A stretch of 57,636 bases of DNA from a virus. The position numbers and the translations under genes were made by a program. The notes under the pieces were generated by a model. That model was not told where the DNA came from. It did not search any database and saw only the letters and a program-made list of their open reading frames with translations. Within the stretch, counting starts at the first letter, position 1; each line of letters opens with the position of its first letter. Location of the stretch: positions 1 to 57,636 of IMG/VR virus record IMGVR_UViG_3300030104_002283. One strand, 5' to 3'. Below, one piece after another: positions 1,168 to 56,725 of this stretch.

Positions 1168-1639
1168 TATTAAACCTCTTTTCAAAAATTGTATAAGACT
1201 TTTCCCAATTAGATTTGCCTAGCCATTTCCACATACCATATCTAGCTGTGCACTCTATACCATCACACTTATTATCTTTAGCCCAAGCTTCTATTGTTTT
1301 TAAATAATTCCATGCCCAATCAGGTAAGTCTTCTCCACCTAAATATTGAACTGCAACTTTTTTACTATTAGGATAATAAACAAATTCAGTAGTAGCTGCA
1401 CCTACTATATCGTTATCTTCTTCTGTAAAAACTACCCAGAGTTGTTGCTCTGCTTGTTTAATAGAATTTTTTAAATAGTCTATAGTCCATCTTCCTTTAG
1501 ACCTTTTAACTGCTTTTTGTAAATATTTTTCTACATCATTCCAAATAGTTTCCATATAGTGATGAGGAACTAATGTAACAATATAATTATTATTTACTTT
1601 ATAATTATTATTTTCTTTTATCTGAGCTACATTATTCAT
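1160..1639 (-). CDS. GNAT-like acetyltransferase-fold protein of marine phages
   Basis: 159 residues. The central part (WVVFTEEDNDIVGAATTEF, then a beta strand with AVQYLGG) resembles the central strands and loop of GNAT N-acetyltransferases, and similar small proteins occur among structural genes of marine podophages. The acetyl-CoA loop is degenerate, so activity is uncertain. The start overlaps the previous stop by 4 bp (ATGA), implying translational coupling. The assignment rests on remembered family similarity and is moderate. Confidence 0.5.
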   Translation of the reverse strand: MNNVAQIKENNNYKVNNNYIVTLVPHHYMETIWNDVEKYLQKAVKRSKGRWTIDYLKNSIKQAEQQLWVVFTEEDNDIVGAATTEFVYYPNSKKVAVQYLGGEDLPDWAWNYLKTIEAWAKDNKCDGIECTARYGMWKWLGKSNWEKSYTIFEKRFNNG

Positions 1640-4470: not shown

Positions 4471-4809
4471 TTATCTTTCCTCGGTTGTTTCACAACCAAA
4501 TATATTAAAACTCATATCTACTGCACTGGTATAAACTTTTATTACATCAGTTTGGTCAAGTGTTATACCTATTACAATACTTAATGAATCATTTGCTGCT
4601 ACAGATTTATCATAAAATAAAAATTGTTTATCATCTGCACCTGCCCCGCCAACATGAACACTTAATCTAAATGTTATTGCAGAGCCTGTTCTATTTGCAG
4701 CAACTATAGAACTTACTGTTGTTTGGGTTTTATCTGGTACAGTATAAAGCACTGTAGTAGTTGTAGCTGCTGGGTCAACTTGTCCTAATACTTTTAAACT
4801 ATCAGCCAC
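4471..4809 (-). CDS. Small beta-rich virion protein
   Basis: 112 residues with a strand-rich pattern (TTTVLYTVPDKTQTTVSSIVAAN, read as separate strands, then FRLSVHVGGAG) resembling small phage decoration or tail-associated beta-sandwich proteins. It overlaps the upstream gene by 8 bp and abuts the 944-residue protein. The function is unknown; its position argues for a structural role. Confidence 0.55.
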   Translation of the reverse strand: MADSLKVLGQVDPAATTTTVLYTVPDKTQTTVSSIVAANRTGSAITFRLSVHVGGAGADDKQFLFYDKSVAANDSLSIVIGITLDQTDVIKVYTSAVDMSFNIFGCETTEER

Positions 4810-32255: not shown

Positions 32256-32284
32256 TTGACACGATACCCCACATAAACTAACAT
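32256..32284 (+). promoter_or_regulatory. sigma70-like early promoter
   Basis: A perfect -35 TTGACA (32256-32261), 17-base spacer and -10-like TAACAT (32279-32284, four of six consensus positions). Transcription would start near 32291 and enter the non-coding leader and early block. This is the best match in the divergent region between the late and early blocks. Confidence 0.75.
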
Positions 32285-32289
32285 ACGCA

Positions 32290-32740
32290 GTGTTGAGGGA
32301 TTGATGAGACCCAAAAAAGCGAAGAAAAAGTAGCTAACTCCCCTTTCCAAGACACCCATAACGAGACATCTAGTTCTCCTTGAAGTTGGGCTTCGCAACG
32401 AAGCAAAACGATTTGGGTTGCCTAGAGCAACACAAGGTATCGGGGAGACAAACAGAACGGGCTAAACTGGAAATGCCTATCGTGAAAAATCCGAGCATCA
32501 AGCTTTTGTGCGTTTATCCAGTATCCCGACAGTGTTGCCTTTGATGGTTCAATACCGATTTTGCGGAGAATGTAGCGGTTCTACCCTTGATTGAGTTTTT
32601 AAAACTGGCTTAGTGTCCTACTGAACATGGAACGGGGTGTAGCAGTAAAAGTGCTAATTCTGATGGTGTAGCAAAGTCTTTCTCTAGGGGCTAAAAGGTG
32701 TTGTGTGTAGTCAGAAAATCCCATGCTGTTGTGAGTTTTT
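32290..32740 (+). ncRNA. Structured non-coding early leader RNA of unknown class
   Basis: About 450 bases with no substantial reading frame, visibly richer in G+C than the flanks and full of local hairpins: GCTTCG-CAA-CGAAGC (32390-32404), GTTGC-CTAGA-GCAAC (32417-32431), GTAG-CGGTT-CTAC (32572-32584) and TAGCA-GTAAAAG-TGCTA (32640-32656). A longer-range CCCAAA/TTTGGG pairing is possible. It starts just after the early promoter and ends near a T run (32733). Downstream a hammerhead-like fold could free it by cleavage near 32776. I cannot match it to a known large phage RNA. Confidence 0.6.
32304..32333 (+). CDS. Possible nine-residue basic leader peptide
   Basis: ATG 32304 has GAGGG four bases upstream and encodes MRPKKAKKK then TAG, beginning about 13 bases after the predicted transcription start. 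It could be a leader peptide coupling translation to the fold of the following RNA. It could equally be chance. Confidence 0.3.
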   Translation: MRPKKAKKK

Positions 32741-32769: not shown

Positions 32770-32825
32770 TTATGTCCTTGAATTAACAAGCTGAACGAGT
32801 ATCCGCAAGGGTACAAGAAACATAA
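32770..32825 (+). ncRNA. Hammerhead-like ribozyme 1 (type III topology)
   Basis: Stem III pairs TTATGT (32770-32775) with ACATAA (32820-32825). The cleavage triplet GUC ends at C32776. Stem I is CTTG/CAAG (32777-32780 with 32787-32790). The core CUGA-AC-GA follows at 32791. Stem II is GTATCC/GGGTAC capped by GCAA (32799-32814, one G-U pair). AA then GAAA (32817-32820) precedes stem III. Departures from consensus are one extra base at N7 and two extra A before GAAA. The RBS of the next gene follows immediately. Confidence 0.6.
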
Positions 32826-32835
32826 CGGAGAAAAT

Positions 32836-33234
32836 ATGAGTTTTAATACAGCATACATAACAACATCAAGACATGGTACAAAAGATTATACGAATGGGCT
32901 TGATGAGATAGTAATTTCAAAAGAGATAGATTGGAACGATGACAATAGAAAAGATGAATTGGTATTTGGGAAATACTATGCTACTAAAGAAGAAGATAAG
33001 AATAATAAAAATCTTTATAAATTAGAGTATAGAAGTCAATTTGGCTTTGTTTTAAAGCCATATAACGAACATAGACCAAATTTAATTGGGGCTATGAATA
33101 ATGGAGTAATTGCTGAAGTACCATTTGATATTTGTAAACAATTAAAAGCATTTGTTGGTTATCCAATATCTAAATATATGCCTGTTCACGATAGATATGA
33201 AACGCAAAAACAGTACGATATGAATTTCAGATAA
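32836..33234 (+). CDS. Early phage protein of unknown function
   Basis: 132 residues, first protein gene of substance in the early block. It begins SFNTAYITTSRHGTKDYTNG, is polar throughout and has no signal peptide or membrane segment. RBS ACGGAG directly follows ribozyme 1, and its stop codon is followed at once by ribozyme 2, so the gene would lie on a ribozyme-bounded RNA. Possibly a host-takeover protein by position only. Confidence 0.6.
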   Translation: MSFNTAYITTSRHGTKDYTNGLDEIVISKEIDWNDDNRKDELVFGKYYATKEEDKNNKNLYKLEYRSQFGFVLKPYNEHRPNLIGAMNNGVIAEVPFDICKQLKAFVGYPISKYMPVHDRYETQKQYDMNFR

Positions 33235-33296
33235 ACCTATTGATAAGCAACACAGAAAGGTGGCGAAAACAAGGGCTGTATGTCCTTGTTCTAGGT
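33235..33296 (+). ncRNA. Hammerhead-like ribozyme 2 (type I topology)
   Basis: Stem I ACCTA/TAGGT (33235-33239 with 33292-33296). Core UUGAUAA (33240-33246), where C3 and G8 are replaced by U3 and A8, which can still pair. Stem II GC(AA)CAC-loop-GTGGC (33247-33264). GAAA 33265-33268. Stem III AACAAGG/CCTTGTT with loop 33275-33283, closed by the A15.1-U16.1 pair. Cleavage triplet UUC, cut expected after C33291. Begins immediately after the stop of the preceding gene. Confidence 0.75.
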
Positions 33297-33324
33297 AATT
33301 ATATTAATTTTTATAGGAGTAAAT

Positions 33325-33513
33325 ATGAGTGAATTTAATCAAGTAAAATACTTAAAGAAATGTTTGAAAGAAGCAAGAGGAAAATTAGCATATGCAGTTA
33401 TGGAAGATATGTCTGATTTTATAATCAAAAGCTGTGAAGATTCTTGTAAAGCAATTGCTGAAGCATTAGAAGATGCTAAATTTTTAGAAAGTAGAAAAGC
33501 GGATTTTGAATAA
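33325..33513 (+). CDS. Small early protein of unknown function
   Basis: 62 residues, helical and charged, with FNQVKYLKKCLKEARGKL and SCEDSCKAIAEALEDAKFLE. RBS GGAG is at good spacing. It is the only gene between ribozymes 2 and 3, so ribozyme cleavage would make it monocistronic. Confidence 0.6.
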   Translation: MSEFNQVKYLKKCLKEARGKLAYAVMEDMSDFIIKSCEDSCKAIAEALEDAKFLESRKADFE

Positions 33514-33526
33514 TATCAAGATTTAA

Positions 33527-33587
33527 ACCTATTGATAAGCAACACAGAAAGGTGGCGAAAAAGCGGACACTTGTTCGCTTTCTAGGT
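33527..33587 (+). ncRNA. Hammerhead-like ribozyme 3 (type I topology)
   Basis: Matches ribozyme 2 exactly through stem I 5' strand, core, stem II and GAAA (33527-33560). Stem III differs in sequence but pairs: AAAGCG (33560-33565) with CGCTTT (33576-33581), loop 33566-33575. Three stem III pairs covary relative to copy 2. Stem I 3' strand TAGGT at 33583-33587. Triplet UUC, cut expected after C33582. Twenty bases separate its end from the next start codon. Confidence 0.78.
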
Positions 33588-33607
33588 AAATTTTTAAAGG
33601 AGTAAAA

Positions 33608-33790
33608 ATGAAAGCAAATATTTATAAAATTAAATCAAAACAATTTAAGGTTTTTAATGGTATGACCATCAAGGCTTTAAATCCAGCAGAAGCGAAACAA
33701 GAGTTTAAAAATCTTGTTCAGCTTGAAACTAACGAGGTTGTGAAAAGCAATCAATTTAAAATTACGCTGAAATATGCGGGGGTAAATTAA
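33608..33790 (+). CDS. Small early protein of unknown function
   Basis: 60 residues, basic, starting MKANIYKIKSKQFKVFNG, with AKQEFKNLVQLETNEVV. Strands then helix. Preceded by AAAGGAG and ribozyme 3. No family recognised. Confidence 0.58.
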   Translation: MKANIYKIKSKQFKVFNGMTIKALNPAEAKQEFKNLVQLETNEVVKSNQFKITLKYAGVN

Positions 33791-33792
33791 AT

Positions 33793-34095
33793 ATGAAACA
33801 AAGTATAAATGAATATCAATTTAGAGATGCCTTTCATAAGATGGGTAGAGGAGAACAATTTTCATATGATGGGCTTAAAGCTTTATATGATTATTTAGAA
33901 CAGCTAGGAGATAACACGGGCGAAGAAATAGAACTAGATGTTATCGCCTTATGTTGTGAGTATGCCGAATATCAATGTCTTGAGGACTTTCAAAAAGATT
34001 ATGGGAAACGACATTACAAATCTATTGAAGATATAGAAGAACGAACAACAGTTATACAATGTGGTTTGGTCGGATTTATCATTCAACAATTTTAA
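33793..34095 (+). CDS. Early protein of unknown function
   Basis: 100 residues, acidic, with FSYDGLKALYDYLEQLGD and LDVIALCCEYAEYQCLEDF, predicted mainly helical. Similar small acidic proteins occur in marine phages. Two bases follow the previous stop. Confidence 0.6.
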   Translation: MKQSINEYQFRDAFHKMGRGEQFSYDGLKALYDYLEQLGDNTGEEIELDVIALCCEYAEYQCLEDFQKDYGKRHYKSIEDIEERTTVIQCGLVGFIIQQF

Positions 34096-34112
34096 TTAAA
34101 TAAGGAGTAAGT

Positions 34113-34307
34113 ATGGAAAAGAGAATAATTGTAAGACCTGAAAATGTATATGGAAGAACTTTGTATTATCCAGTTTGTGATATTTCAAAAATGTTCTTGA
34201 AGATACAAGGCGGTAAGACATTATCATTCGATACTATCAGCGTTTTAGCAGATGCTGATTTTAATATCGAAGTGGAAGCGATAATGCCAAAACTTCATAA
34301 TAATTAA
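34113..34307 (+). CDS. Small phage protein of unknown function
   Basis: 64 residues: RIIVRPENVYGRTLYYPVCD and KIQGGKTLSFDTISVLADAD. This compact family is common among phage early genes. RBS AAGGAG. A strong hairpin follows its stop codon. Confidence 0.6.
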   Translation: MEKRIIVRPENVYGRTLYYPVCDISKMFLKIQGGKTLSFDTISVLADADFNIEVEAIMPKLHNN

Positions 34308-34308
34308 T

Positions 34309-34367
34309 AAAGCGGGGGGCTATGGTTTATCCGTAAGCTTTCATATTGGCTGTAGCCCCTTTGCTTT
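34309..34367 (+). terminator. Hairpin, possible terminator or attenuator
   Basis: AAAGC (34309-34313) pairs with GCTTT (34363-34367), and GGGGCTA (34316-34322) with TAGCCCC (34353-34359). The inner loop is 30 bases. The 3' arm is U-rich (TTTGCTTTCC), so it may terminate partially or mark a processing point just before ribozyme 4. Confidence 0.5.
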
Positions 34368-34369
34368 CC

Positions 34370-34388
34370 TGATAGTAAGTACTTACTT
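34370..34388. repeat. TGATAGT(R)AGTACTTACTT palindrome, copy 2
   Basis: TGATAGTAAGTACTTACTT contains the perfect 14-bp dyad AGTAAGTACTTACT. Nearly identical to the site at 31636. Possible operator inside the early block. Confidence 0.5.
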
Positions 34389-34391
34389 TTA

Positions 34392-34446
34392 ATACTGTCC
34401 TACAATATTGGTAATTGTAGCTGAATGAGATACCACGAAACAGTAT
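34392..34446 (+). ncRNA. Hammerhead-like ribozyme 4 (type III topology, pseudoknotted, reduced stem II)
   Basis: Stem III ATACTGT/ACAGTAT (34392-34398 with 34440-34446), seven pairs. Triplet GUC, cut expected after C34399. Stem I CTACAAT/ATTGTAG (34400-34406 with 34414-34420), seven pairs. Core CUGA-AU-GA (34421-34428). Stem II is reduced to G34429-C34436, but its loop bases UACCA (34431-34435) are exactly complementary to UGGUA in loop I (34409-34413). GAAA at 34437-34440. The extra base at N7 is shared with ribozyme 1. Confidence 0.68.
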
Positions 34447-34485: not shown

Positions 34486-34608
34486 ATGAAATTATTTAAT
34501 GATTTCAAAAAATTTCTTTCTGACATGAGAGGGTTAGAAAGATTTAACTGGTATGTATTGAAGCCTTTGGCTTTAATATTTGTATTAATAGCTTTTAGCA
34601 TTTTTTAG
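34486..34608 (+). CDS. Small membrane protein
   Basis: 40 residues, starting MKLFNDFKKFLSDMRG, with a C-terminal transmembrane helix (NWYVLKPLALIFVLIAFSIF). RBS TTGGAG. It follows ribozyme 4 and precedes the MoxR gene. A short membrane toxin-like or host-modifying role is possible but unproven. Confidence 0.6.
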   Translation: MKLFNDFKKFLSDMRGLERFNWYVLKPLALIFVLIAFSIF

Positions 34609-34622
34609 GAGTAAGTAAAAAT

Positions 34623-35624
34623 ATGAAAGCAAAACAATTAGAAAAAAGCTTAGAGAAGTTAATCTCTATTAAACAGCCCTGTTTCATATGGGGCGGTGTT
34701 GGTGTGGGTAAATCAGAGATTGTCCACAAAGTAGCTAAAGATATGGGCTATAGGATTGAAGATGTAAGAGTTGCATTGTTAGACCCTGTAGACCTTAGAG
34801 GTGTGCCTAGTGTTGAAGATGGAAGAACTGTTTTTAATCCGCCTGTATTTTTACCTACTGATGAACAGCCTAAAACATTGTTGTTTCTTGATGAACTTCC
34901 GCAAGGCAGTCCATCTGTACAGAACGCATTGTTTCAGCTAATCAAGGATAGAAAACTTGGCGAGTACACATTACCTAAAGATACTGTAATAGTTAGTGCG
35001 GGTAATAGAGTACAAGACAAGGCGGGGGCTAACAGAGTTAATACCGCTTTGGGAGATAGGTTTGTTCACTTGAACTTAGATGTATGCCATCAAGAATGGA
35101 TTGACTGGGGCATTAAAACTAAGAAGATAAAACAAGAAGTATTATCCTTTATCTCTTGGCAAGGCGAAGATTATTTATATCACTTTGATAAAAATGCTTC
35201 AGTCAATGCAACGCCTAGAGCATGGGAATATACAAGTAATGTATTGGCTACTGACCCTGATAAAGACATAGAGCAAGAACTTTATGCGGGTATTATTGGC
35301 GAGGGTATAGCCCCTGAATTTATAGCATTTGTTAGAAGATTTAGGAACTTACCTAGTGTTGATGTTCTGTTAAAAAATCCTGAAGATATTTTACAAGACT
35401 TAGAACTTAAATCAGACATGATTTATATGATTGTTGGTGTTCTAGCAAAAAATATGAATAAGGATAATATCCAAAAGTACTATGAATTTCTAAGAGATAC
35501 GCAAGATATTCAAGATGAGTTTTTAGTTATGGCTATGACTATGGCTACAGCTAGAGATGAAAGCTTGAAGAAAACAAAAACATATATTGATTATGAAATT
35601 GATTATCAAGATATTGGGGCTTAA
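34623..35624 (+). CDS. MoxR-type AAA+ ATPase
   Basis: 333 residues. Walker A GGVGVGKS (24-31), Walker B LLFLDE (86-91), sensor-like TVIVSAGNR (near 122-130). ATP-driven chaperone that usually works with a VWA-domain partner, encoded two genes downstream. Its substrate in the infected cell is unknown. Confidence 0.85.
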   Translation: MKAKQLEKSLEKLISIKQPCFIWGGVGVGKSEIVHKVAKDMGYRIEDVRVALLDPVDLRGVPSVEDGRTVFNPPVFLPTDEQPKTLLFLDELPQGSPSVQNALFQLIKDRKLGEYTLPKDTVIVSAGNRVQDKAGANRVNTALGDRFVHLNLDVCHQEWIDWGIKTKKIKQEVLSFISWQGEDYLYHFDKNASVNATPRAWEYTSNVLATDPDKDIEQELYAGIIGEGIAPEFIAFVRRFRNLPSVDVLLKNPEDILQDLELKSDMIYMIVGVLAKNMNKDNIQKYYEFLRDTQDIQDEFLVMAMTMATARDESLKKTKTYIDYEIDYQDIGA

Positions 35625-35636
35625 CAGCCCCTTGTC

Positions 35637-35655
35637 TATTAACCCATTAATATTT
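35637..35655. repeat. TATTAA-N4-TTAATA dyad, site 4
   Basis: TATTAA-CCCA-TTAATATTT, directly before the RBS AAGGAG of the next gene. Confidence 0.7.
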
Positions 35656-35666
35656 AAGGAGAAACT

Positions 35667-36548
35667 ATGGCTCAATTAAGAGACAAAGCATTATTGATTG
35701 AACTTCATTTGAAGAAATGGAGTGGAGTAAAAACTGATAAATCATTAAGAGATGAATTAGCTAATAATCATTCTATTGATGAGACTAGAATTTCAGTCAA
35801 CAAAAAACTAACTAACAGCCCTATCTTGAAAAAAATCAAAAAGATTGATGGCAAGATAAGAACTGAATGTATCTATAGCGGGGCGGGTTATAGCGGTTAT
35901 TGTTTGGCTTGGGATAATCAAGGTACTTATCTATTACCCATTGAATTAAAAGATAAGTTTGAAAGAGACTTCGTTGGTTGGCAGAACGAAAGAGAAAAAT
36001 TAGTAAAAGATTTTGTTAAACAATATGACAATATTATTGCAGAAGCTAAGACTGATTTAGGAACTACTTTTAATATTGATGATTTTCCTAGTAGAGATGA
36101 GATAGAAGATTTATTTGAGTGTAGCATCTTAAAGAAACCTATCCCATCAAGTAATGATATTAGAGTTAATCTTCCCGCCAGTGAGATAGCAGAGTTAAAA
36201 GCAAATGCTAAAGCTGAAGAAGATGCGAAGATGCAAAAGATAACTGGGGCAGTTGTTGATAAGGTTCAAGGTGTATGTAAACACTTTGCAGATAAGATTG
36301 ATAGCGGAGAAACATTTAGAGATAAAACTGTTGATAAGCTTATTGAACTTTGCGAAGTGCTACCCGCATTGAATATAAATGGAGATGCAAATATTCAGTC
36401 AGCACATCAAAAAGCTATGGATACTTTTCATGGTAAAGATATAACAGCAGATAAAGTTAGAAATGATAAAGAGTTAGCTAAAGAATTATCTAATACAGCT
36501 AAAGATATTGTTTCTGATTTAGATACTAAAGGGGGTTATTTTGACTAA
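35667..36548 (+). CDS. Unknown protein between MoxR and VWA genes
   Basis: 293 residues, helical and charged, with WSGVKTDKSLRDELANNHSI and a long coiled region (KLVKDFVKQYDNIIAEAKTD). It may be a DUF3150-type phage protein, but I am not certain. Its place in the MoxR-VWA operon suggests a linked role. Overlaps the next gene by 8 bp. Confidence 0.6.
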   Translation: MAQLRDKALLIELHLKKWSGVKTDKSLRDELANNHSIDETRISVNKKLTNSPILKKIKKIDGKIRTECIYSGAGYSGYCLAWDNQGTYLLPIELKDKFERDFVGWQNEREKLVKDFVKQYDNIIAEAKTDLGTTFNIDDFPSRDEIEDLFECSILKKPIPSSNDIRVNLPASEIAELKANAKAEEDAKMQKITGAVVDKVQGVCKHFADKIDSGETFRDKTVDKLIELCEVLPALNINGDANIQSAHQKAMDTFHGKDITADKVRNDKELAKELSNTAKDIVSDLDTKGGYFD

Positions 36549-37743
36549 CGATATTGATAAAAAAGCAAAAAACATAATGACTAAAGCTAGGGTTCATTTG
36601 TTAAAAAATAATCCTTTTTATGGAAAACTTGCTATGGATTTAGATTTTGTTGAAAGCAAAAAGTTTGACACTATGGCGGTTGATGGACAGAGAATATTCT
36701 ATAACCCTGACTTTGTGCATAAGATTACTTTTCTTGAAACAGTTGGAGTGATAGCCCATGAGGTACTTCATGTTGTCTTTAAACATCATTTGCGTAGGAA
36801 CGACAGAGACCCTTTCTATTGGAATGTTGCGGGAGACTATATCATCAATTACATTTTAAATGATGAGGGCTTTATGCTTCCTGAGGGTGGCTTACTTGAC
36901 TATTCTTACAAGGGTTCTACTACCGAGAAAGTATATGAAGATGTCTATAAAGAAAGCGATAAGCAAGATGCTAATACTGATGGCGGAGACAATACATCTG
37001 ATAGTGAAGATGATGAAAGAAAATCTTTATCTAAAAGAATGTGGGGCGAAGTCATAGATGCAGTCATTGAAGAAGTTGAGGGTGTATCTAACGAAGAACA
37101 AATAGAAAAGTTAGAACAAGAAATAAACGCTAAAGTCATTGATGCAACGCAAGTATCTAAGACTATGGGTAAAGGTGGAGATGCTTTTAAATCTATTATG
37201 GATATGGTTAGAACGCAGTCTGTATCTTGGGAAGAAGTGTTAGGTAATTTAATATTAGATAAGACTACTTCTAACGATTATAACTTTAATACACCTAACA
37301 GAAGATATGTATATCAAGATATGTACTTACCATCTGTTGAGAAAAAGCCTAACCCTAAAGGTGTGATTGCTCTTGATATTAGCGGGAGTGTAGATAAAGA
37401 AACTATGGCTATGATGCAAGATGCAGTGAATAACATTGTTCCTGTTGCTAACTTTGAAGAACTAACAATTCTTTATTGTGATGATTGCATAAGGCAAGTT
37501 GATACATTTCATGGTGGAGAAGAAGTTGAGTTGGATTATATTCGTGGTGGCGGAACAGACTTTGAGCCTGTATTCAAATATATAGATAAGGAACTTGATA
37601 ACGAGGTTGCTTTTCTTGTTTACCTAACTGATGGGTGGTGTTGGGATATACCTAGTGAGCCTGAATATCCTGTGATATGGGCGACAACGGACACTGACCA
37701 TTACTTTAAGGATAAATTTGGAGAGGTTGTTTATGTTGAATAA
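36541..37743 (+). CDS. VWA-like protein with N-terminal zinc-peptidase-like domain (DUF2201 type)
   Basis: 400 residues. TTG start chosen since GGGGG lies five bases upstream; an internal ATG at 36577 is the alternative. HEVLH (73-77) resembles a zincin motif. A charged acidic linker follows (about 140-160). The MIDAS motif DISGS (279-283) and later YLTDGW mark a VWA fold. The partner of the MoxR ATPase, likely forming a metal-dependent protein-remodelling complex. Confidence 0.82.
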   Translation: MTNDIDKKAKNIMTKARVHLLKNNPFYGKLAMDLDFVESKKFDTMAVDGQRIFYNPDFVHKITFLETVGVIAHEVLHVVFKHHLRRNDRDPFYWNVAGDYIINYILNDEGFMLPEGGLLDYSYKGSTTEKVYEDVYKESDKQDANTDGGDNTSDSEDDERKSLSKRMWGEVIDAVIEEVEGVSNEEQIEKLEQEINAKVIDATQVSKTMGKGGDAFKSIMDMVRTQSVSWEEVLGNLILDKTTSNDYNFNTPNRRYVYQDMYLPSVEKKPNPKGVIALDISGSVDKETMAMMQDAVNNIVPVANFEELTILYCDDCIRQVDTFHGGEEVELDYIRGGGTDFEPVFKYIDKELDNEVAFLVYLTDGWCWDIPSEPEYPVIWATTDTDHYFKDKFGEVVYVE

Positions 37744-42764: not shown

Positions 42765-42820
42765 CTAGTGAATAACTAATATTAAATATATAGTGTATTA
42801 CTAATCTAGTAATATACTAA
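42765..42820. promoter_or_regulatory. Array of three CTAGT-N5-ACTAA operator-like repeats upstream of primase-helicase
   Basis: Copies at 42765-42779, 42790-42804 (first base A instead of C) and 42806-42820. They match the terL array and lie between a small putative DNA-binding gene and the primase-helicase, suggesting a shared regulator for both genes. Confidence 0.7.
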
Positions 42821-43086
42821 TCATTCAAATTTTCTCTTTGCCAAACAGTAGCTGATATAGAGGAAATAATATCTTCAGATAATTTCTTTTTGTTTTTGGC
42901 ATTTAATAAGCCTAATAAAGATTGTCTTATTGTATGAGGTTGAATACCAACAATACTGCAAACTTCAATAAATTCTTTTGATGTAATCCAATCAACAGCA
43001 TCTTCGTATTTCCTTTTATTATTACTGGCAATATCTCTGATGGCTTGGATAATCACTGATAGATAAATTTCTTTTAGTTTATTCAT
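42817..43086 (-). CDS. Small putative regulatory protein
   Basis: 89 residues, helical. KRKYEDAVDWITSKEFIEVC followed by IVGIQPHTIRQSLLGLLNAK resembles small helix-turn-helix proteins of phages. Its stop codon lies inside the operator array, mirroring the regulator/array/gene order before terL. Confidence 0.6.
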   Translation of the reverse strand: MNKLKEIYLSVIIQAIRDIASNNKRKYEDAVDWITSKEFIEVCSIVGIQPHTIRQSLLGLLNAKNKKKLSEDIISSISATVWQRENLND

Positions 43087-47546: not shown

Positions 47547-47565
47547 TATTAACGCTTTAATATTT
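47547..47565. repeat. TATTAA-N4-TTAATA dyad, site 11
   Basis: TATTAA-CGCT-TTAATATTT immediately after, and touching, the stop codon of the giant polyvalent gene. With site 1 it flanks the two-gene right-hand part of the late operon. Confidence 0.7.
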
Positions 47566-50500
47566 ATCTTACTACAGCTTTGTCTCCCAAGCCTTGTAAA
47601 TATTCTTTTCTTCTTCTCATTATTTGTTCTGCTCTTAAATAATCATTTTTTTGTTCTGCTATGCTATCTAATCTAATTCTTTTTTCTTCTGAAGAAAGAG
47701 TTGAACTATTTATTATTGATGCTTCTGCGGTTCTAAATTCTTTTAATTCATCAGCGACTTTTTGTAATTCTTTTTGCAATCTTTTTAAATCTCTCATGTA
47801 TTCTATTTTGTATTCATCTGTTAAACCTTTTGCAAACTTGTCTCTTTTTTCTATGTTATCTTCTATTACTCTAAATGTATTTATTGTGTCATCTACATCT
47901 TTCTTTAGATTATAAAATTGGTTTTCATAATTACTTCCCTCTTTTGGTAAAAGAAATCTACCTATTACTGGAAGTTGGTCAACGCCAAATTTTACTCTTT
48001 CCGCATCTGTTAAACCCTCTCTTAAAACACTATCTGTTGCTATCATTAAATAACTTCCTAATGTTCCTGTATAACCTCTAACAAGATTTTCTACATACAA
48101 AGGGCTAATGTTTAACTCATCTCCTATTACTTTAGAAAGAGTATCTGTTTGTGGTCTATAACCCGCATCATCAGTTCCTTTTAAATAGTCAGGCACTATT
48201 TGTCTGCCTGTAAACAAATCATAGTTAGCAAAGTTTTCTACAAGAGGGTCAACAGCCGTTGGTAATGTTAAAGAGAAAGTATGTCTTGTCATTTTTTTAA
48301 TTCTTTTAGCAACATCTTCTCCTGCTACATCATCTGCAAAATAAGATGTAAGCCGTTCGGGAACAGTCATACTAATTAGTCCGACTTCAAAAGGTTTAGG
48401 TATTACTAATGGAAAACCGCCTGTTATTTTTTTGCTTCCGGGTATAATTAAATAGTTATCTTTTATTTCATCAGGTGCTTCTTCATATTCTTCTGAATCT
48501 CTAACTAAAAAATAATATCCGGGCATCATAGCCATTATTGTTGCTAGTCTTAACCACACACTTTTTGTTCTTTTTGATGGACTTAAACCTCTACCTATTC
48601 CATATCTTCCTGTTAAACCTCTATAAAAAACATCTAGTCCTTGTAGCCTAGGATTTAAAAACATTGTCATTTGTTGATATGTTTGAAAAGCTTTATTGTT
48701 ACCACGCCTTGTAAAGTTTAAAACTTCTAATGCTTGATAAATTGCTTCAGCTTCGTTGCCTGTTCTTTTTAATGTATCTTTATATACAGCAACTCTAGTA
48801 GCAGCATCTGTTATAGCTGTACCTTGTCCTAGTATATCCCATAAACCAGTTACTAAATCTATAGGAAACATATAAATTTTTTCTGCTGTTGGTCTTTCAC
48901 TTTTAAAAGCATTTTTATAGTAACCATCAATAAGACTTTGTGTGCTATCTATTTCTCTTATACCTTTGTCATAGCCTGTTATTATTCCTGCATTTTTTAA
49001 TTTAACAAACTCTTCTGGAAGTCTGCCGGTAATCATTCCTTTAGCTATCCTAAAAGTTTCTGCTACTGAAGAAATCACTGGTATATAATTAGCACCACTT
49101 AAAGTATAAGCAGATAATGAATCTCTTAATATTTGTGCAATCCAAAAAGCAGGAGCTCTTGTTATTAAATCACTAACAAATCTTTTAGTTCCTCTTGCTA
49201 TATTCATAAGAAGATTCATAGGTGCATAATCAGCTTCTGACATTACATTCATTGAATAATATAACATTGGGTCATCTATTTTAAAGTTTGTATTTTTTCC
49301 TTTAACTCTTATAGTAATTACATCTGGTCCTTTAACATTACCTTTAACTTGTTTAGCTACTTCTAAATCTATAAGATTACGCATTACTCTATTAGCTGCT
49401 ACATTTTTCATACCTAAATTTATAGCTGCTCTTAAATTGTTTGTAATGCCAGTAATAGGGTCAACAATATCTTTTGTTTCACTACCTTTAGCTTTTTGAA
49501 ATGGAGTTATAGATAAACCTTGAAATATTTTTGGTCCTTTAAATCCTTCCATTCCTTCTAGCGGTCTATAAAAAGGAATGTAATCTGAATTTGCTAACCA
49601 TGTTTCTGCTGTCTTTGCATCTAATACACCAGTATCAACTAAAAATTGAACTGTATGTTCATTAGTTCTATTGTACTCATCAATCATAGTTTGTACTTCA
49701 GGATAATCTTGTAATACTTGTTTAGCTTTTTTTCTATCGGCTGCTGTTACTTTTACTTTCCTACCTTCTTTATTAAATCTTGTTTCTCTTTTAACTCTTT
49801 GTACTGCTTGGAAAGCCCAAAGTAAATTAGGATTTTTATAAGCTGGTGCAAATATATCAGCAAAAGGTAAAACAGGTTTACCATCTATTTGTGATATATC
49901 AGTTACATAAGTGTATCCTTTATCTTTATCATAACGAGGAAAACCTCTTATGAAAGATTGCATAAATATATCTCCTGACCTATCAGAAAAATATAAAGCT
50001 GCACCTGCTGACATACTAGCAAGTAACATTTGGTCTCCGTATTTATTTTTTTTACCTGCTTTAACATCTGTTAATGCTAATCTTCCATACCTATCTGCTA
50101 TTTGTTCTCTAACTTTCATACCAAATTCTTTGGTAGCATCAATAGGTTTAAAGCCTTCTAATACAAGTTGACCAATAGTTTTACTTTCAATAGTGTCATC
50201 TCTTACTGTTAAATTTTCTATTAACTCTTCAGCATTTTGATTTAAAGGATTTTTATTTTTATTAAATGAATACTTTAATTTAATATCATTTGGTATGTCA
50301 TTAATAATAGAATCTACATCTGCATTAGTTTCAGATGTACTATTTTTAATTTCTTTTTGTGCTTCTATTGCTGCGGATACAGCACTAGGCGATGCATTAG
50401 TATTTATTACAGGAATTAAACCTGCTGCTATAGAGTTTTGTTCTTGTTCTTTTGCAGTTTGGATATTTTCTTTATCTTGTTCACTAAGTTCCGGTTGTTC

Positions 50501-53500
50501 TTCCGAGCTTCCTCTTCTGCTTCTGCTTCTATTTCTATCAACGATTCTATCGTCCTGAAATAATTGGGCGGTATCTTCTTCGACAATTTCTTCTCCTAAT
50601 TTTTTAGTGTTATTAATATAAGTAAAACCAACATTAGGTGTTGCTGTTCTTTTTACATAATCTTTTAATGCATTGTAACTATCTTTTACTTTATTATCTA
50701 TTGATACTAAATAATCAACAGATACAAACCTTCCTGTTTCACCAAATCTAGTAATAGCTCTTACTATAGCTTGATTTATATTAGCATCTGGATAAACAAT
50801 ATCTACTTTATATCCTCTGCTTTGCAAATCTTGCATTATATATTTAATTTTACTTATATCTGGTTGCCTACGATTATTAGTTTTACCTGCAACTTTAGGT
50901 ATTATTATATTTGCACCTTCTTCTATAAATTGTTTTTGAATTTCAGCAGCAATATATTTTGAAAATTTATGTGTAGCATTAGCTCCTATACCATTTTTAT
51001 ATTCAGGCATTTGTTTTTTAGCATCATCAGCATCAACTATTGCATAACCTTTTCTTGCAGCTATATTTTCAGCAAATGTTGACTTACCTGTAGCTGGTGG
51101 TCCAATTATTATGACTGCTTTTTTATCGTATTTTAAATTACCTTTTGCATATTCTGTGGCTATGTCTGTTAACTCAGGAATCATTTCATTCATTCTTTTG
51201 TTTCTTTGAGCTTCAGTTAAATTATCATAAACATCAGGTATAGCTAATGCTTCATTTTGCATAGCTAACATAGCTGGGTGATTTACTAAAGCATACATAT
51301 CATCTGCATTTATATTATCATTTTGATATTGCGGTTCGTTTGCTAACAAAATTAAATCTGCTTTTGCATCTAACAACTCTTGTCTAGTTAAAGTTTTTAT
51401 TTGCTCTTGTGGAACATTAAAATTTCCAGATGTTATAGTTTGAGTATCACCTTGTATTATTATTCTATCTCTTTGAATTTTATTTACATCTTGTAAGTGT
51501 GTAGTTAAAACTTGTTTACCTGTAGTATCTCCATAATCATCTATTAAAAAGTTTGTTGGTATTAAAAGTTCTTGTTCTCTTATATAGTTATATCTATCGG
51601 CATATAAATTATTTGCATCACCAAGCATAGACTCACCCCTATATAAAGCGTTCATATTTACTGCTATAGCTTCTTTAGGTAAAAGATATTTTTTAACATT
51701 GTAGCCATACTTAGCTATATCTTCTGGTCTGCCTTCTGCTCTAAGTAATTGTCTTCCAAATTCTTCTAATGTTACATTTGGTTCTATTGTTCCATCTTGT
51801 TTTCTTTTGTAATAAAGTTCCTCTATTCTTTCATTTCTTCTTAGTAAATTTTGTCCAAAAGATTCTGCTATAAATTTATTAGTTGTTGTAGGTATTAATT
51901 GATAACTGTCATCTATACGACTTCCTCTGTACACAACTATTTCTTCAGGAAATAATTTTATAGATTCTTGTGTAACAAAATCTATACCATCAGAAATTTC
52001 TTGTGCTTGTACTACAGATAAATTTGGAAATCCAAAACCATAATGAAACAATCCTTGATTTTTTCTATTGCCTGTTAATTGTTTCACAAAAGCTTTAGCT
52101 CCTAAAGTCATTAATGGTGCTATATATTCTGAACCTTCTCCTCTTCCATCTTTTAAAAATTCTTTTATAGGCGGTGGTATTGATGCAACAGTTCCATATA
52201 AGTTTCTAAAGTATCCTTCTAATGTAGGTGCACCTGATTGTTCTTCTAGTGTTGCTTTTACATCATCAATTAATCTACCATTTGTTTCTCTTAAAGAGTA
52301 TTTTAAATTACCCAATTCAGGCGGGTCTTCTACAAAAGATGTTGAGACTGTTTTTTTATTATCATTTGATTTTACTAACAGATTTGGATTATTAGTATTT
52401 TCTAAAACTAAAGTTTTATGTCTTTCAGATAATTCGTTATCACCAAATATATTATTTAATTTTTGTGTAATGCTTGAACCATCTCCAGTAATATATTCAG
52501 GTTTTTGACTAAATATAAAATTAGAACCTAGTAATAATGGATTTAATAATATAGCTTGTGGTTTAAATAAAACAGGAGTTATGTATTGGTCGTATTCATT
52601 TTGTTTATTTGGTCCTACATTATTGCCTATATATTTTTGGTATTTTTGTTGAGTTATAAATGGGCTTTCTATTCTTTTACTTGCATCATTTATATTATTA
52701 TATACAGTTAAAGTATCCATACCTTTAGCTACATCTGTTTCTCCTATTGCAAAACCGACATAATAATCACTATCTGAAAGTTTTCTAAATTTATATTCTG
52801 CAAATGTAGCTTTACTATTTGGTGTTATGTTATTTGCTTGTAAATATTCTTGTGTTGTTGCAAATAAAAGTTGACTACTTTTTGCAATTTTAAAATCAAG
52901 GTTATTATAATTTATATCATTAAAATTACTTGTTTCTCTTAGTTTATTATTTTTATCTTTAATTATATTTGTTAAAGTTTTTTGAAAACCATCTAACTTT
53001 ATTAAAGGATTTGTAGCATTATTAACTTGTCTTTTATAAACATCTAATACTATATTTTGAATATTTGTATCTATTACAGGACTCCATTCTCTAAATTTTC
53101 TATCGGTTTCAAATGGTCTTGTATTACCTATTTGTTCTTCTAGTTTATTTTCAATTTGTTGTTCAGTTAAACTAAATGCAAGACTTGGCTCATCAGATAC
53201 TGGCGGTTTAGGTTTAATATTAAGAGGTGTTGATTGTTGTAACTGTTGTAATTCTTGTGTAGTTCTTATTGTTCCTCTTGGTCTAGCTGCTATTTCTCCT
53301 GTTACAGCAGCTTCTAAAATATCTCCAGCTGATTTATATTTAGTTTTAAATACAGCGTTTGCTAATCCTTTAAAAAAATTAGATGTTTTTTGTAATGCGT
53401 TTCTAGGTCTGCCAGTTATTTTTTTTGGATTATTAATATAATCTTCAAACATAAAAGCTATTGCTTCATCTACAAAATCAAATTCACTGGTATATCCCGG

Positions 53501-56500
53501 TTTACCTTCATACCTGTCTAAAGCTTCTTCGTAATAAGTTTTACCATCTTTTCTTATTTTAGTTTTAGCAAAATTTTCTAAAGCATTTATTTCTTGTGCC
53601 GTAAATAAATCAGCTTGTCTTAAAGCGTGCCAACTTTCATGTCCTAAAGTTTGAGATATATTTTGTAAAAACTTTTTAGCTCCATTTTTTTCAGATAAAA
53701 CATTTAAGTCTGCTTTATCTAAAGATAAAAGTATTTCATTTGCTGCTCTATCAAATACACCATCAGCTTGACTAAAATTTATATTATCTCTATTTTTTAC
53801 TCTATCTAAAAAAGTAGTAAATTTTAATTTAGTTTCCGGTAAATTAAGTTTATCTGATAACTTTATAATTTCTTGTTGTACTGTTTCTATTGCTTCATTT
53901 AAACTTGTTTCTACTAGCGGTCTTAAACTTCCATCAAAATTATATTTTCTATTAGAAGTACCTGTAAATTTAAAATCGTTATCTAAATAACCAGCAGTTA
54001 CAAATGTTTGTCTTAAATTTTCTGCAGCTTTTTTATTTAAACCTGTTGAGTCTTGTATGTTTTTTATAGAAACTTTTTTGCCCACATCTATTTTTTCTAA
54101 GCCTTCTAAAGCTATTGAATAATCATTTATGTTGTAAGCTGTAGCACTTAAATCTAATAATTTTGTTTCTGTATTTGCTTTGGGTAGTCTATTAAAAAAA
54201 GAATATAATAATCTTTTTTGAGGTAGCCCCATTTTATTTATATCTGTTTCAGCTACTAATCTATTTGCTACATATTTAAAAGCATTTGAATCTACAGTAT
54301 CAATTATGTTTAAGTCTTTTAATAAACTGTTAAATGTTTTTTTAGAAAAAGACTTTTGTTTAACTTCGCTAAAATTATTTTGTTCGGTTTGATATTTTAA
54401 AACTTTATTAAATTCTGTTGGAGTTAAAAATTCTTTTAATGTATTTGCATTTACTAATGGATTAAATTTTTGAATCTCTTTTATTTCTGTTAAAGTTTCT
54501 TCTGATATATTTAAAGTTTTTAAATCGTCAATATGTATATCTAATAAATAAGAATTATTTATGTTATCTACAAAATCTAATATTAAATTATTATCTGCAT
54601 CTACATTTTGTTCTATAGCTTTTTCTTGCGACCATTGAATTTCTGCTATCATATTAGAACGCTTTTGCAATTCTGTTAAAACATCTACAGCATATTGTTG
54701 GTCTTTATATCTAGCAACTTCATTTTCATTTAAGTCTGTTATAACAAAATCACCATTTTCATCTGGTAAAATATTTCCTTGTTTATCAAAACGACTTTTA
54801 AAATAATTATTACTTTCTACACCAGAATTTTTTTCTATAATTCTTACAATATTAAAATTATTATCTTGTAATATTTGGTCAGCTTCTAATACTGCAGGAG
54901 TAAAACCTGTATAATTTTTAAAATTTTCTTCTTGTTCAAAAACTAATCTTTGTGCTTCAATAGAAATTTGTGCTGGGTTTGCATCAGGATTTAATTGTTG
55001 TATTCTTTGAAACTCTTTTTTTATTTTAGCTTCTATCTCTTTTCTATATGGGTCCTCTACTGGTAAACCATTTAATTTATCTCTATAATCTTTAACTGCC
55101 CTAATTCTATCTTCATATAATTCTTTTTGTCTTTTTGATTTATTAGTTGTATAAGCAGAAGTAAGTTGTGCTACAGGCACTTCAACAACTGAAAATCCAA
55201 ACTCTCCAACAACTTCTAAAGCAACATCTCCTATTCTTATTTGCTCTCCTTCTTCTAAAGTAGAAAGTTGTGCAAAGTATTCTCCTGCTCCACCTAATGT
55301 TCCTTGTAATGGAGCTTGAACTAAACTATTAATTAAATGTCTTGATGCATTATCTTTTATTGTATCTTTTGCAAATATAGTTCCTCTTGATGGAGCTATA
55401 ACTTTAGGAGCTAATTTAAAAGCTGCAGCATCAAACGCACCAATAAAGACTCCTCTTTTTATTACATATTGTCTAAGTCTTTTTCTGTTATCGTCTTCAT
55501 TTAAAAAAGCTACAACAGCTTTTTCATCATTTATATCTACACCATTTTTTCTTAAAAACTCTGTAGCTGAATATACAGTATCTACTGAACCAGAAGCTAT
55601 ACCTGTAGCTATAGAACCAGCTGTATAACTTCTTGTTAACATACTTGTGCCAACACCTGCAGATAAAGAAATACCCATTGGTACCAAACTAGAAGCTACA
55701 GTTTGTTTCACGATGCCAGTAAAATCAGATAACAATATATCTACTGCTTCTTCTGTGCTTTCAGCTTCTGCAAATGCTTTAAATGTTTCAGAAGTTTTTA
55801 CATTTTGTTGTTTACTTATTGCACTAGCTATTTCTTCATTAGCTATTTCTTGCGACCTTAATAATCCAAAAGGGGGTATTCTTTTACCATCATATATAAA
55901 ATCCATTGGGTAAGTTCCATACAAACCACCATCAGTAATACCACCATATTCTCTGTTTCTATATTCTTCTTCTCCTATTTTGCTAATTCTTTCTAAATCT
56001 ATTTTTGTATCTTTGTCTGTTTTATTACCTAGTGTATAAGGAGTTATTGTGCTTATATCAACACCATCGTATTTTCTTCCGTAAATTATTTGTTGTAAAT
56101 AATCTATTCGTTCTCTGTCTTCTTTAGTTTTATTTACTTTATTATTTATTTCTTGTAGTTCTTTTTTTATTTTTACTATAAGTTCTTCATTTCTAATTTT
56201 TTCTTTTTGAAAAGCTATTTCACCAAAAAATTTTTGTGCACCTGATTCAGTTATAGTATCAGTTACTCCTGTTTCTTCTCCAAAAAAAGATGGACTTGCT
56301 TCTTTTTCTTCTTCAGTAAATTTTCTTTGTGGACCTTGTGTAGCTCTTTTATATATGGAAGGTATTAAATCTGTTGCTACATATTTAATATTTTCTAAAC
56401 CTTGTGTTATTGCAGATGTATTTAGACCGGGCATAGGAGAAAAATCTCCAACTCCTAATGCAGAAAGTGCAGCTAATTTATCTCCTGCAGAAACATCATC

Positions 56501-56725
56501 TGATTCGAGTAAATCAGTAATGCCAAATTGGGTTTGAGGTTCGATTTGGGGTTGGGTTTGGGGTTGGGTTTGGGATTGAGATTGGGGTAATGTAATGGAA
56601 TCTTTAGAAAATTTTATAGGTTCAACATTATTATAATATTGTTCCCATTTTTTAATATCTTCATCTGTTGCATTATCAGGCAACTCATGGGTAATATTAT
56701 CATTTGTTGTAATATATTTAGGCAT
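47564..56725 (-). CDS. Giant polyvalent virion protein (metallopeptidase-like, ART-like, zeta-toxin-like and LPD38 domains)
   Basis: 3,053 residues. Order: N-terminal region with hydrophobic stretches (about 330-540); HESWH zincin-like motif (about 1029-1033) with a downstream EAIAFMFEDY; an ART-type module with VYRGS (near 1594), PTTTNKF and EQELLIP (near 1718); a zeta-toxin-like P-loop GPPATGKST (near 1875) followed by IVDADDAKK; then an LPD38-like polyvalent region (about 2150-2900) with FADIFAPAYKNPNLL and a hydrophobic stretch near 2728. Such proteins are thought to be ejected into the host with the DNA and carry several effectors. The exact domain edges are estimates. No cysteine-rich or repeat region was noted. 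Confidence 0.82.
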   Translation of the reverse strand: MPKYITTNDNITHELPDNATDEDIKKWEQYYNNVEPIKFSKDSITLPQSQSQTQPQTQPQIEPQTQFGITDLLESDDVSAGDKLAALSALGVGDFSPMPGLNTSAITQGLENIKYVATDLIPSIYKRATQGPQRKFTEEEKEASPSFFGEETGVTDTITESGAQKFFGEIAFQKEKIRNEELIVKIKKELQEINNKVNKTKEDRERIDYLQQIIYGRKYDGVDISTITPYTLGNKTDKDTKIDLERISKIGEEEYRNREYGGITDGGLYGTYPMDFIYDGKRIPPFGLLRSQEIANEEIASAISKQQNVKTSETFKAFAEAESTEEAVDILLSDFTGIVKQTVASSLVPMGISLSAGVGTSMLTRSYTAGSIATGIASGSVDTVYSATEFLRKNGVDINDEKAVVAFLNEDDNRKRLRQYVIKRGVFIGAFDAAAFKLAPKVIAPSRGTIFAKDTIKDNASRHLINSLVQAPLQGTLGGAGEYFAQLSTLEEGEQIRIGDVALEVVGEFGFSVVEVPVAQLTSAYTTNKSKRQKELYEDRIRAVKDYRDKLNGLPVEDPYRKEIEAKIKKEFQRIQQLNPDANPAQISIEAQRLVFEQEENFKNYTGFTPAVLEADQILQDNNFNIVRIIEKNSGVESNNYFKSRFDKQGNILPDENGDFVITDLNENEVARYKDQQYAVDVLTELQKRSNMIAEIQWSQEKAIEQNVDADNNLILDFVDNINNSYLLDIHIDDLKTLNISEETLTEIKEIQKFNPLVNANTLKEFLTPTEFNKVLKYQTEQNNFSEVKQKSFSKKTFNSLLKDLNIIDTVDSNAFKYVANRLVAETDINKMGLPQKRLLYSFFNRLPKANTETKLLDLSATAYNINDYSIALEGLEKIDVGKKVSIKNIQDSTGLNKKAAENLRQTFVTAGYLDNDFKFTGTSNRKYNFDGSLRPLVETSLNEAIETVQQEIIKLSDKLNLPETKLKFTTFLDRVKNRDNINFSQADGVFDRAANEILLSLDKADLNVLSEKNGAKKFLQNISQTLGHESWHALRQADLFTAQEINALENFAKTKIRKDGKTYYEEALDRYEGKPGYTSEFDFVDEAIAFMFEDYINNPKKITGRPRNALQKTSNFFKGLANAVFKTKYKSAGDILEAAVTGEIAARPRGTIRTTQELQQLQQSTPLNIKPKPPVSDEPSLAFSLTEQQIENKLEEQIGNTRPFETDRKFREWSPVIDTNIQNIVLDVYKRQVNNATNPLIKLDGFQKTLTNIIKDKNNKLRETSNFNDINYNNLDFKIAKSSQLLFATTQEYLQANNITPNSKATFAEYKFRKLSDSDYYVGFAIGETDVAKGMDTLTVYNNINDASKRIESPFITQQKYQKYIGNNVGPNKQNEYDQYITPVLFKPQAILLNPLLLGSNFIFSQKPEYITGDGSSITQKLNNIFGDNELSERHKTLVLENTNNPNLLVKSNDNKKTVSTSFVEDPPELGNLKYSLRETNGRLIDDVKATLEEQSGAPTLEGYFRNLYGTVASIPPPIKEFLKDGRGEGSEYIAPLMTLGAKAFVKQLTGNRKNQGLFHYGFGFPNLSVVQAQEISDGIDFVTQESIKLFPEEIVVYRGSRIDDSYQLIPTTTNKFIAESFGQNLLRRNERIEELYYKRKQDGTIEPNVTLEEFGRQLLRAEGRPEDIAKYGYNVKKYLLPKEAIAVNMNALYRGESMLGDANNLYADRYNYIREQELLIPTNFLIDDYGDTTGKQVLTTHLQDVNKIQRDRIIIQGDTQTITSGNFNVPQEQIKTLTRQELLDAKADLILLANEPQYQNDNINADDMYALVNHPAMLAMQNEALAIPDVYDNLTEAQRNKRMNEMIPELTDIATEYAKGNLKYDKKAVIIIGPPATGKSTFAENIAARKGYAIVDADDAKKQMPEYKNGIGANATHKFSKYIAAEIQKQFIEEGANIIIPKVAGKTNNRRQPDISKIKYIMQDLQSRGYKVDIVYPDANINQAIVRAITRFGETGRFVSVDYLVSIDNKVKDSYNALKDYVKRTATPNVGFTYINNTKKLGEEIVEEDTAQLFQDDRIVDRNRSRSRRGSSEEQPELSEQDKENIQTAKEQEQNSIAAGLIPVINTNASPSAVSAAIEAQKEIKNSTSETNADVDSIINDIPNDIKLKYSFNKNKNPLNQNAEELIENLTVRDDTIESKTIGQLVLEGFKPIDATKEFGMKVREQIADRYGRLALTDVKAGKKNKYGDQMLLASMSAGAALYFSDRSGDIFMQSFIRGFPRYDKDKGYTYVTDISQIDGKPVLPFADIFAPAYKNPNLLWAFQAVQRVKRETRFNKEGRKVKVTAADRKKAKQVLQDYPEVQTMIDEYNRTNEHTVQFLVDTGVLDAKTAETWLANSDYIPFYRPLEGMEGFKGPKIFQGLSITPFQKAKGSETKDIVDPITGITNNLRAAINLGMKNVAANRVMRNLIDLEVAKQVKGNVKGPDVITIRVKGKNTNFKIDDPMLYYSMNVMSEADYAPMNLLMNIARGTKRFVSDLITRAPAFWIAQILRDSLSAYTLSGANYIPVISSVAETFRIAKGMITGRLPEEFVKLKNAGIITGYDKGIREIDSTQSLIDGYYKNAFKSERPTAEKIYMFPIDLVTGLWDILGQGTAITDAATRVAVYKDTLKRTGNEAEAIYQALEVLNFTRRGNNKAFQTYQQMTMFLNPRLQGLDVFYRGLTGRYGIGRGLSPSKRTKSVWLRLATIMAMMPGYYFLVRDSEEYEEAPDEIKDNYLIIPGSKKITGGFPLVIPKPFEVGLISMTVPERLTSYFADDVAGEDVAKRIKKMTRHTFSLTLPTAVDPLVENFANYDLFTGRQIVPDYLKGTDDAGYRPQTDTLSKVIGDELNISPLYVENLVRGYTGTLGSYLMIATDSVLREGLTDAERVKFGVDQLPVIGRFLLPKEGSNYENQFYNLKKDVDDTINTFRVIEDNIEKRDKFAKGLTDEYKIEYMRDLKRLQKELQKVADELKEFRTAEASIINSSTLSSEEKRIRLDSIAEQKNDYLRAEQIMRRRKEYLQGLGDKAVVR

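Follow-up and report, generated by a model that had tools for sequence, protein, structure and literature searches.

Introduction

Hammerhead ribozymes have been described in series within prophages, where clustered elements flank single genes and processing into single-gene mRNAs has been suggested (Perreault et al., 2011; PMC3088659). Such tandem arrays cleave in vitro, and one array also cleaves in E. coli (PMC3088659). Among the natural variants described there, the U3-A8 form of the core has been proven active, the A6a insertion has low activity, and stem II may be reduced to one or two pairs (PMC3088659). In the haloviruses HF1 and HF2, the 5′ end of an early transcript lies 3 nt or less from a hammerhead site (PMC3088659). 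A further report cites an enrichment of bacterial hammerheads close to one another and to genes of Mu-like phages (PMC10085705). Here we analyze a 57.6-kb virus record (IMGVR_UViG_3300030104_002283, positions 1–57,636; this whole stretch is called the window below), in which an initial annotation had placed four hammerhead-like ribozymes, here E1 to E4, between the first early genes.

We consider it likely that hammerheads at the leader/gene and gene/gene junctions process the early transcript of this virus into a leader RNA and gene-sized pieces. The arrangement resembles the arrays of Clostridium scindens, Azorhizobium and Agrobacterium (ardA), in which hammerheads of mixed type lie serially between phage genes, cutting into single-gene or operon units was proposed, and the U3-A8 core and A6a insertion already occur as natural variants. 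Since Perreault et al. (2011) had described such serial sets flanking single genes, the initial suggestion that a set used in this way was without precedent fails. Unlike those arrays, the window belongs to a virus in the neighborhood of the marine Pelagibacter phages HTVC027P and HTVC023P, its A6a core is no isolated oddity but marks a conserved subclass, in which stem II has one or two pairs and there are kissing loops, and its first element comes after a structured leader RNA. Judged against the open-access PubMed Central literature, what is new is this subclass, represented by E4, the leader RNA ahead of a cut site and, possibly, a long-range cleavage site in relatives.

Results

Four hammerhead-type elements among the early genes

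The coordinates, cleavage triplets and helix orders of the initial annotation were all reproduced (Table 1). E1 and E4 have the type III order of helices and E2 and E3 the type I order, and each element lies, as had been claimed, 10–40 bases before a gene, ending approximately 10, 29, 21 and 40 bases upstream of the next ATG (32836, 33325, 33608 and 34486). When the isolated sequences were folded without constraints, the minimum free energy (MFE) structure of E1, E2 and E3 was the three-way junction, and that of E4 contained helices I and III. A relaxed descriptor that covered both types, the cores CUGANGA, UUGANAA and CUGANNGA, the NUH triplet, GAAA and the stems found exactly these four elements on the plus strand, compared with a mean of 0.067 hits in shuffled windows (60 dinucleotide shuffles, both strands). 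Its one further hit, a weak type I-like match on the minus strand (approximately 42802–42878) upstream of the primase/helicase gene, was judged to be chance because it is largely coding and helix III is lost in a relative.

The cores had been called CUGANGA-like. The literal CUGANGA occurs in none of the four: one base is inserted in E1 (CUGAACGA) and in E4 (CUGAAUGA), and E2 and E3 have UUGAUAA (U3-A8). Comparison with relatives, described below, gives very strong support that E2, E3 and E4 are hammerhead-type elements. In relatives of E2/E3 and E4, the triplet, GAAA and core pairing are not lost; compensatory changes keep them. The E4 and type I patterns were both absent from GTDB genome contigs, and a plasmid search returned nothing relevant.

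Table 1. Positions of the elements, genes and related features in the window and in other genomes
Feature	Position	Strand	Basis or context
Candidate sigma70-like early promoter, TTGACA-17-TAACAT	32256..32284	+	Upstream of leader RNA
Leader RNA, ~430-nt structured core closed by GGGAUU/AAUCCC	32297..32722	+	Between terS (- strand) and first early gene
E1, type III hammerhead-like, core CUGAACGA (32791-32798), GAAA (32817-32820); predicted cut after 32776 (GUC)	32770..32825	+	
132-aa protein gene, first piece after E1	32836..33234	+	Open reading frame (ORF) list
E2, type I hammerhead, core UUGAUAA, GAAA; predicted cut after 33291 (UUC)	33235..33296	+	Fold, covariation, model R1
62-aa protein gene, single-gene piece between E2 and E3	33325..33513	+	ORF list
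E3, type I hammerhead, core UUGAUAA, GAAA; predicted cut after 33582 (UUC)	33527..33587	+	Fold, covariation, model R1
Three small genes (60, 100, 64 aa), third piece	33608..34307	+	ORF list
Hairpin GGGGCUA...UAGCCCC directly upstream of E4	34316..34359	+	Sequence
E4, type III, 8-base core CUGAAUGA, 1-bp stem II; predicted cut after 34399 (GUC)	34392..34446	+	Covariation, model R2
Downstream early genes: 40-aa ORF, MoxR-like AAA ATPase (34623-35624), DUF3150-like, VWA/metallopeptidase-like	34486..37743	+	ORFs, Pfam, PHROG
Five serial type III hammerheads between genes, L075 (IMGVR_UViG_3300025282_000108)	7-69, 3459-3519, 4733-4792, 5070-5137, 5606-5667	-	
Intact E4-type hammerhead, Vibrio phage Phriendly (L103/L108, MN062185.1)	1492-1554		Covariance model
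Bare substrate strands after the leader	L032 4190-4200, L034 4514-4524, L039 4663-4673, L036 4758-4768, L040 1858-1868		

The type I elements E2 and E3

The stem I strands and core are identical between E2 and E3, and helix III differs in a compensatory manner (ACAAGG/CCUUGU in E2, AAGCG/CGCUU in E3). A pattern based on stem II retrieved 33 distinct type I elements from IMG/VR, one of them (L054) degenerate. Across 31 distinct trimmed copies, 98.3% of pair cells were paired (helix I 99.4%, helix III 96.2%), with changes on both sides at 11 of 15 pairs. The covariation score was 0.718, compared with 0.143 in shuffles, and was reached by 0 of 500 shuffles; alignments slid out of register dropped to 28–50% paired. 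Since the cut was placed from helix I alone, the result for helix III is independent of the fit, except for L069, which was placed by hand.

GAAA is invariant and 15.1–16.1 is A-U in all 31 copies. In 33 intact elements of 34 listed, U16.1 is fixed and H17 is C, A or U, never G (L069 re-registered by hand); the exception, L054, looks degenerate. The triplets seen are GUC, UUC, AUA, GUA, UUA, GUU and AUC. Most type I relatives have an exact CUGANGA core in which N7 may be A, C, G or U (CUGAUGA in L021, L022 and others), and by this comparison the UUGAUAA core of the window is a compensated change from C3-G8 to U3-A8. The three-helix order, the consensus core or its known active U3-A8 form, and G12, A13 and A14 are all present. 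A covariance model of the family, R1, scored E2 at 40.2 bits (E 4e-9), with E2 inside its training set.

Type I elements mostly begin approximately 5 nt past a stop codon, and a ribosome binding site and ATG then follow in most. At L001 3342 and L032 4929, a 5′ untranslated region (UTR) module (UAGGUAA or UUGAUAAAC ... GGAG) occurs without a ribozyme upstream, which suggests module swapping. Blastn also matched the type I motif to two phage records from a Vibrio collection, for which Shewanella is the stated host; the match lies inside terL and was set aside as chance.

E4 represents a conserved subclass with kissing loops

E4 shows the type III helix order, GAAA and the NUH triplet, with a stem II of only one or two pairs. 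In 20 distinct relatives, 94% of cells were paired and 14 of 21 pairs had changes on both sides, a result matched by 0 of 500 shuffles; helix I was 100% paired, with both-side changes at all seven of its pairs. E4 also has the tertiary contact between loops I and II (34409–34413 with 34431–34435): UGGUA × UACCA becomes UAGUA × UACUG in one clade, a G-C to A-U exchange, and 85% of cells in this kissing interaction are paired.

In place of the strict seven-base CUGANGA, CUGAAUGA is found in 20 of 20 copies, a set collected with a pattern containing the 8-base core or by similarity of the ATPase. At L092 3014–3073, the same architecture occurs with an exact CUGAUGAG, which supports the extra base of E4 being an insertion near A6/N7. 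E4 is a hammerhead-like variant rather than a consensus member. Phage PaP3, considered as a source of the A6a variant, offered only a type I candidate, which is unrelated.

All 13 relatives retrieved through their ATPases, with protein identities as low as 58%, have an E4-type element ahead of the ATPase gene; in the window, a 40-aa ORF lies between the two. In less related contigs, the architecture precedes other genes. Covariance model R2 scored E4 at 75.9 bits (E 5e-19), E4 being inside the training set, and both R1 and R2 detected more copies beyond their training sets. One of these, found by R2 with E ~1e-15, is in Phriendly, a cultured phage of Vibrio natriegens. The Phriendly element comes after 1.4 kb, near the genome start, in which no genes are annotated. 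In the L075 array (Table 1), which the E4 model also detected, ordinary and inserted cores are mixed, and two array elements, in L075 and L102, match Rfam Hammerhead_3 at E ~1e-4, under the cut-off. E4 can be compared with HHphage of HF1 and HF2, which is likewise a core-insertion hammerhead just upstream of an early replication gene; for HHphage, an RNA 5′ end was mapped near the cut. HHphage is, in contrast, a single element with its insertion near C3, not after A6, in viruses of an archaeal host.

A structured leader RNA precedes E1

The noncoding stretch ahead of E1 has a G+C content of 44%, compared with 30% in the genes that follow. In an alignment of eight relatives (approximately 430 nt), RNAalifold predicted 83 pairs, and both sides change in 37 of these. 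Of the cells, 94.7% were paired, versus 33–46% when the alignment was slid. As the structure was predicted on this same alignment, it has an advantage over the slid versions, and the stronger part of the evidence is the both-side changes and the shuffles, none of 500 of which reached the observed score. The leader also occurs in L001, L021, L022, L031, L032, L034, L036, L039 and L040; no Rfam family matched it in the window or in L040. GOLLD and ROOL (PMC12286853) are likewise large, structured noncoding RNAs of phages, but the present leader is about 430 nt long, lies at the start of an early operon and has no matching Rfam family. For the leader as for E2–E4, comparison of sequences establishes the structures and their conservation. 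Since the leader is structured and covaries, E1 would free a real structured RNA, in agreement with the initial idea of a free leader piece; its release is a prediction.

E1 itself is less certain than E2, E3 and E4. Its five near-identical copies (the window, L001, L021, L022 and L031) differ internally only at N7 and at one G-U/A-U pair of stem II. The E4 model ranks E1 as its top local match (14 bits, E 0.001 over 401 bases) and scores the L031 copy at 24 bits (E 7e-4). The CUGAACGA core also occurs in an otherwise regular hammerhead, L075 5606–5667. Neither a strict CUGANGA core nor a GAAA directly after stem II is present, and from its sequence we claim only that E1 may work like a hammerhead; on balance, it is probably active.

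Bare substrate strands in relatives without E1

In L032/L034/L039, L036 and L040, the junction between leader and first gene has no ribozyme but carries what would be its downstream half, a triplet and then the stem I strand (Table 1). Each bare strand pairs with the two arms of a type I core block that lies 320–740 nt downstream in the same genome. In L032, L036 and L040, the bare strands form the full stem I and stem III runs of 5, 4 and 5 pairs, compared with runs of 5, 2, and 2 or 1 for the ribozymes' own downstream strands; in two of the three clades (L036 and L040), the bare strand is thus the better fit. The longest run was always in the matched genome, with one tie that uses wobble pairs, and the chance expectation for perfect 10/10 substrate matches is 0–0.1 per contig. 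Three extra matches, in L045, L060 and L065, are in coding sequence and may be chance.

These pairings suggest that L032, L036 and L040 may encode a discontinuous type III hammerhead that spans a gene, which would then lie within helix I; this hypothesis concerns the relatives and not the window. The arrangement matches the discontinuous hammerhead of rodent Clec2, a type III element whose helix I encloses 150–1500 nt (PMC6155905); in the relatives, the substrate is 320–360 nt upstream of the nearest core. The Clec2 element, however, is in a mammalian 3′ UTR, whereas here the setting would be a phage early transcript. Recombination that copied the strand accounts for stem I and could account for L032; it accounts less well for L036 and L040, in which the distant site is a better match than the local site. 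It is possible, though we hold the idea tentatively, that the hammerheads of this phage group chiefly free the leader RNA, using E1 in one clade and, in L032/L034/L039, L036 and L040, a bare strand cut by the type I core block 320–740 nt downstream, which would make that block discontinuous and dual-site.

The early region

The large terminase of the window is 54–57% identical to those of the Pelagibacter phages HTVC027P and HTVC023P, phage 023Pt_psg01 and phage DSL-LC04; BLAST found no DNA-level match to the early region among deposited phages. This plus-strand region diverges from the gene for the small subunit of the terminase. The promoter candidate is the region's best promoter-like match (10/12), and relatives have TTGACA with TATAGT or TAATAT at the same position. 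The 132-aa protein of the first gene piece has no match in Pfam or PHROG, and the 100-aa protein of the third piece matches PHROG 9974 (function unknown). Judging from its sequence and position, the hairpin directly upstream of E4 likely provides the upstream piece with its 3′ end structure; L022, L032 and L036 have hairpins of different sequence at the same place.

The protein encoded at 36541–37743 is labeled HNH endonuclease in PHROG (1314); its Pfam match to DUF2201 (metallopeptidase and VWA-like domains) is very strong, and the PHROG label looks wrong. Positions 47564–56725 hold one ORF of 3053 aa on the minus strand, probably an internal virion protein.

Discussion

In the processing scheme that we favor, early transcription would run from the sigma70-type promoter through a leader of approximately 480 nt, which contains the structured RNA, into the early genes, and hammerheads at the leader/gene and gene/gene junctions would cleave the nascent RNA. 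The products would be the leader (to 32776), two one-gene pieces (32777–33291 and 33292–33582), a three-gene piece (33583–34399) and a replication/ATPase message from 34400 on, a division that had been predicted at the outset and agrees with the ORFs. Hammerhead cleavage leaves 5′-hydroxyl and 2′,3′-cyclic phosphate ends. Downstream pieces would therefore begin with a 5′-hydroxyl, in a short UTR after a type I cut and in a 5′-terminal hairpin after a type III cut. Upstream pieces would end in a cyclic phosphate, with the ribozyme fold (type I) or the hairpin (E4) as a cap. The likely purpose would be release of the leader RNA and separate stability and dosage for each small gene, either of which cleavage may alter.

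How well do other explanations account for these elements? Simple hammerheads arise by chance in large databases, and the MFE z-scores here are modest (−1.1 to −2.0). Folding by chance of AT-rich intergenic DNA is nevertheless extremely improbable, given 0.07 expected elements against four found, and the compensatory changes in dozens of relatives refute it for E2–E4. The elements might instead be inherited modules, no longer active, that mainly mark recombination points for swaps of small genes. The gene content between elements does vary among relatives, and the UAGGUAA...GGAG module is also found without a ribozyme. As dead modules would not be expected to retain compensatory helix changes, a near-invariant core and variation at N7 and H17 only as a working hammerhead permits, we regard this explanation as very improbable. 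It is also conceivable that the elements act as cut-and-join modules, the 33292–33582 RNA closing on itself and being ligated into a small circular mRNA. The 5′ end of this RNA carries UAGGU, and the complementary ACCUA stands with a ribozyme at the 3′ end; the stem I strands are identical in E2 and E3, in both type I elements of L040 and in both of L045; and type I hammerheads produce circular RNAs in retrozymes (PMC4918200; PMC7229834). Simple duplication of an element also gives a shared stem I, however, and Perreault et al. (PMC3088659) found no circular or spliced products of tandem bacterial arrays, making circularization improbable, if less so than inherited dead modules.

A narrower alternative is that only E2, E3 and E4 are ribozymes and that E1 either resembles a hammerhead without being active or serves the leader as a structural element, in which case the leader would not be released in this phage. 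The 8-base core of E1, the two extra bases before its GAAA and its model score of only 14 bits are compatible with this possibility, and because its five copies are almost identical there is no covariation by which to judge it. Against an inactive E1, its core recurs in the otherwise regular L075 hammerhead, its internal variation is limited to N7 and one stem II wobble, and a hammerhead substrate strand occupies the same junction in three other clades. On these grounds an inactive E1 seems unlikely, although it is the most credible of the alternatives weighed here.

Several observations weigh against processing by the four elements. Rfam 15 recognizes none of them: hammerhead models RF00008 and RF00163, which share their helix order, GAAA and NUH, found nothing in the window, whether at gathering or at permissive thresholds. 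The best sub-threshold match, to a relative of the E2/E3 type, had an E value of 0.09, and some relatives match RF00008 below threshold only. E1 combines an inserted core base with two extra bases before GAAA and shows no compensatory change among its five copies, and a base inserted after A6, as in E1 and E4, lowered activity in one tested natural RNA (PMC3088659). The promoter is a reading of the sequence, and promoter-like matches are no more frequent than in shuffles. Relatives differ in how many type I elements they have and where these lie, with one in L001 and L022 and two in the window and L040, so that no single cut is essential. Structure patterns alone do not reveal the purpose of cleavage. 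We infer catalysis, the processing scheme, its purpose and the activity of E1 from sequence alone, and the Mg2+-dependent cleavage at all four sites is in the same way a prediction.

If the elements process early transcripts as we propose, serial hammerhead processing recurs in marine phages and is not a prophage curiosity, and it does so in forms that standard RNA models miss. The A6a core, so far a rare and weak oddity, would define a conserved subclass whose kissing loop covaries, and the cultured phage Phriendly offers a system in which to test it. Release of a leader RNA together with single-gene early messages would be a candidate answer to the question of what hammerheads do for phages.

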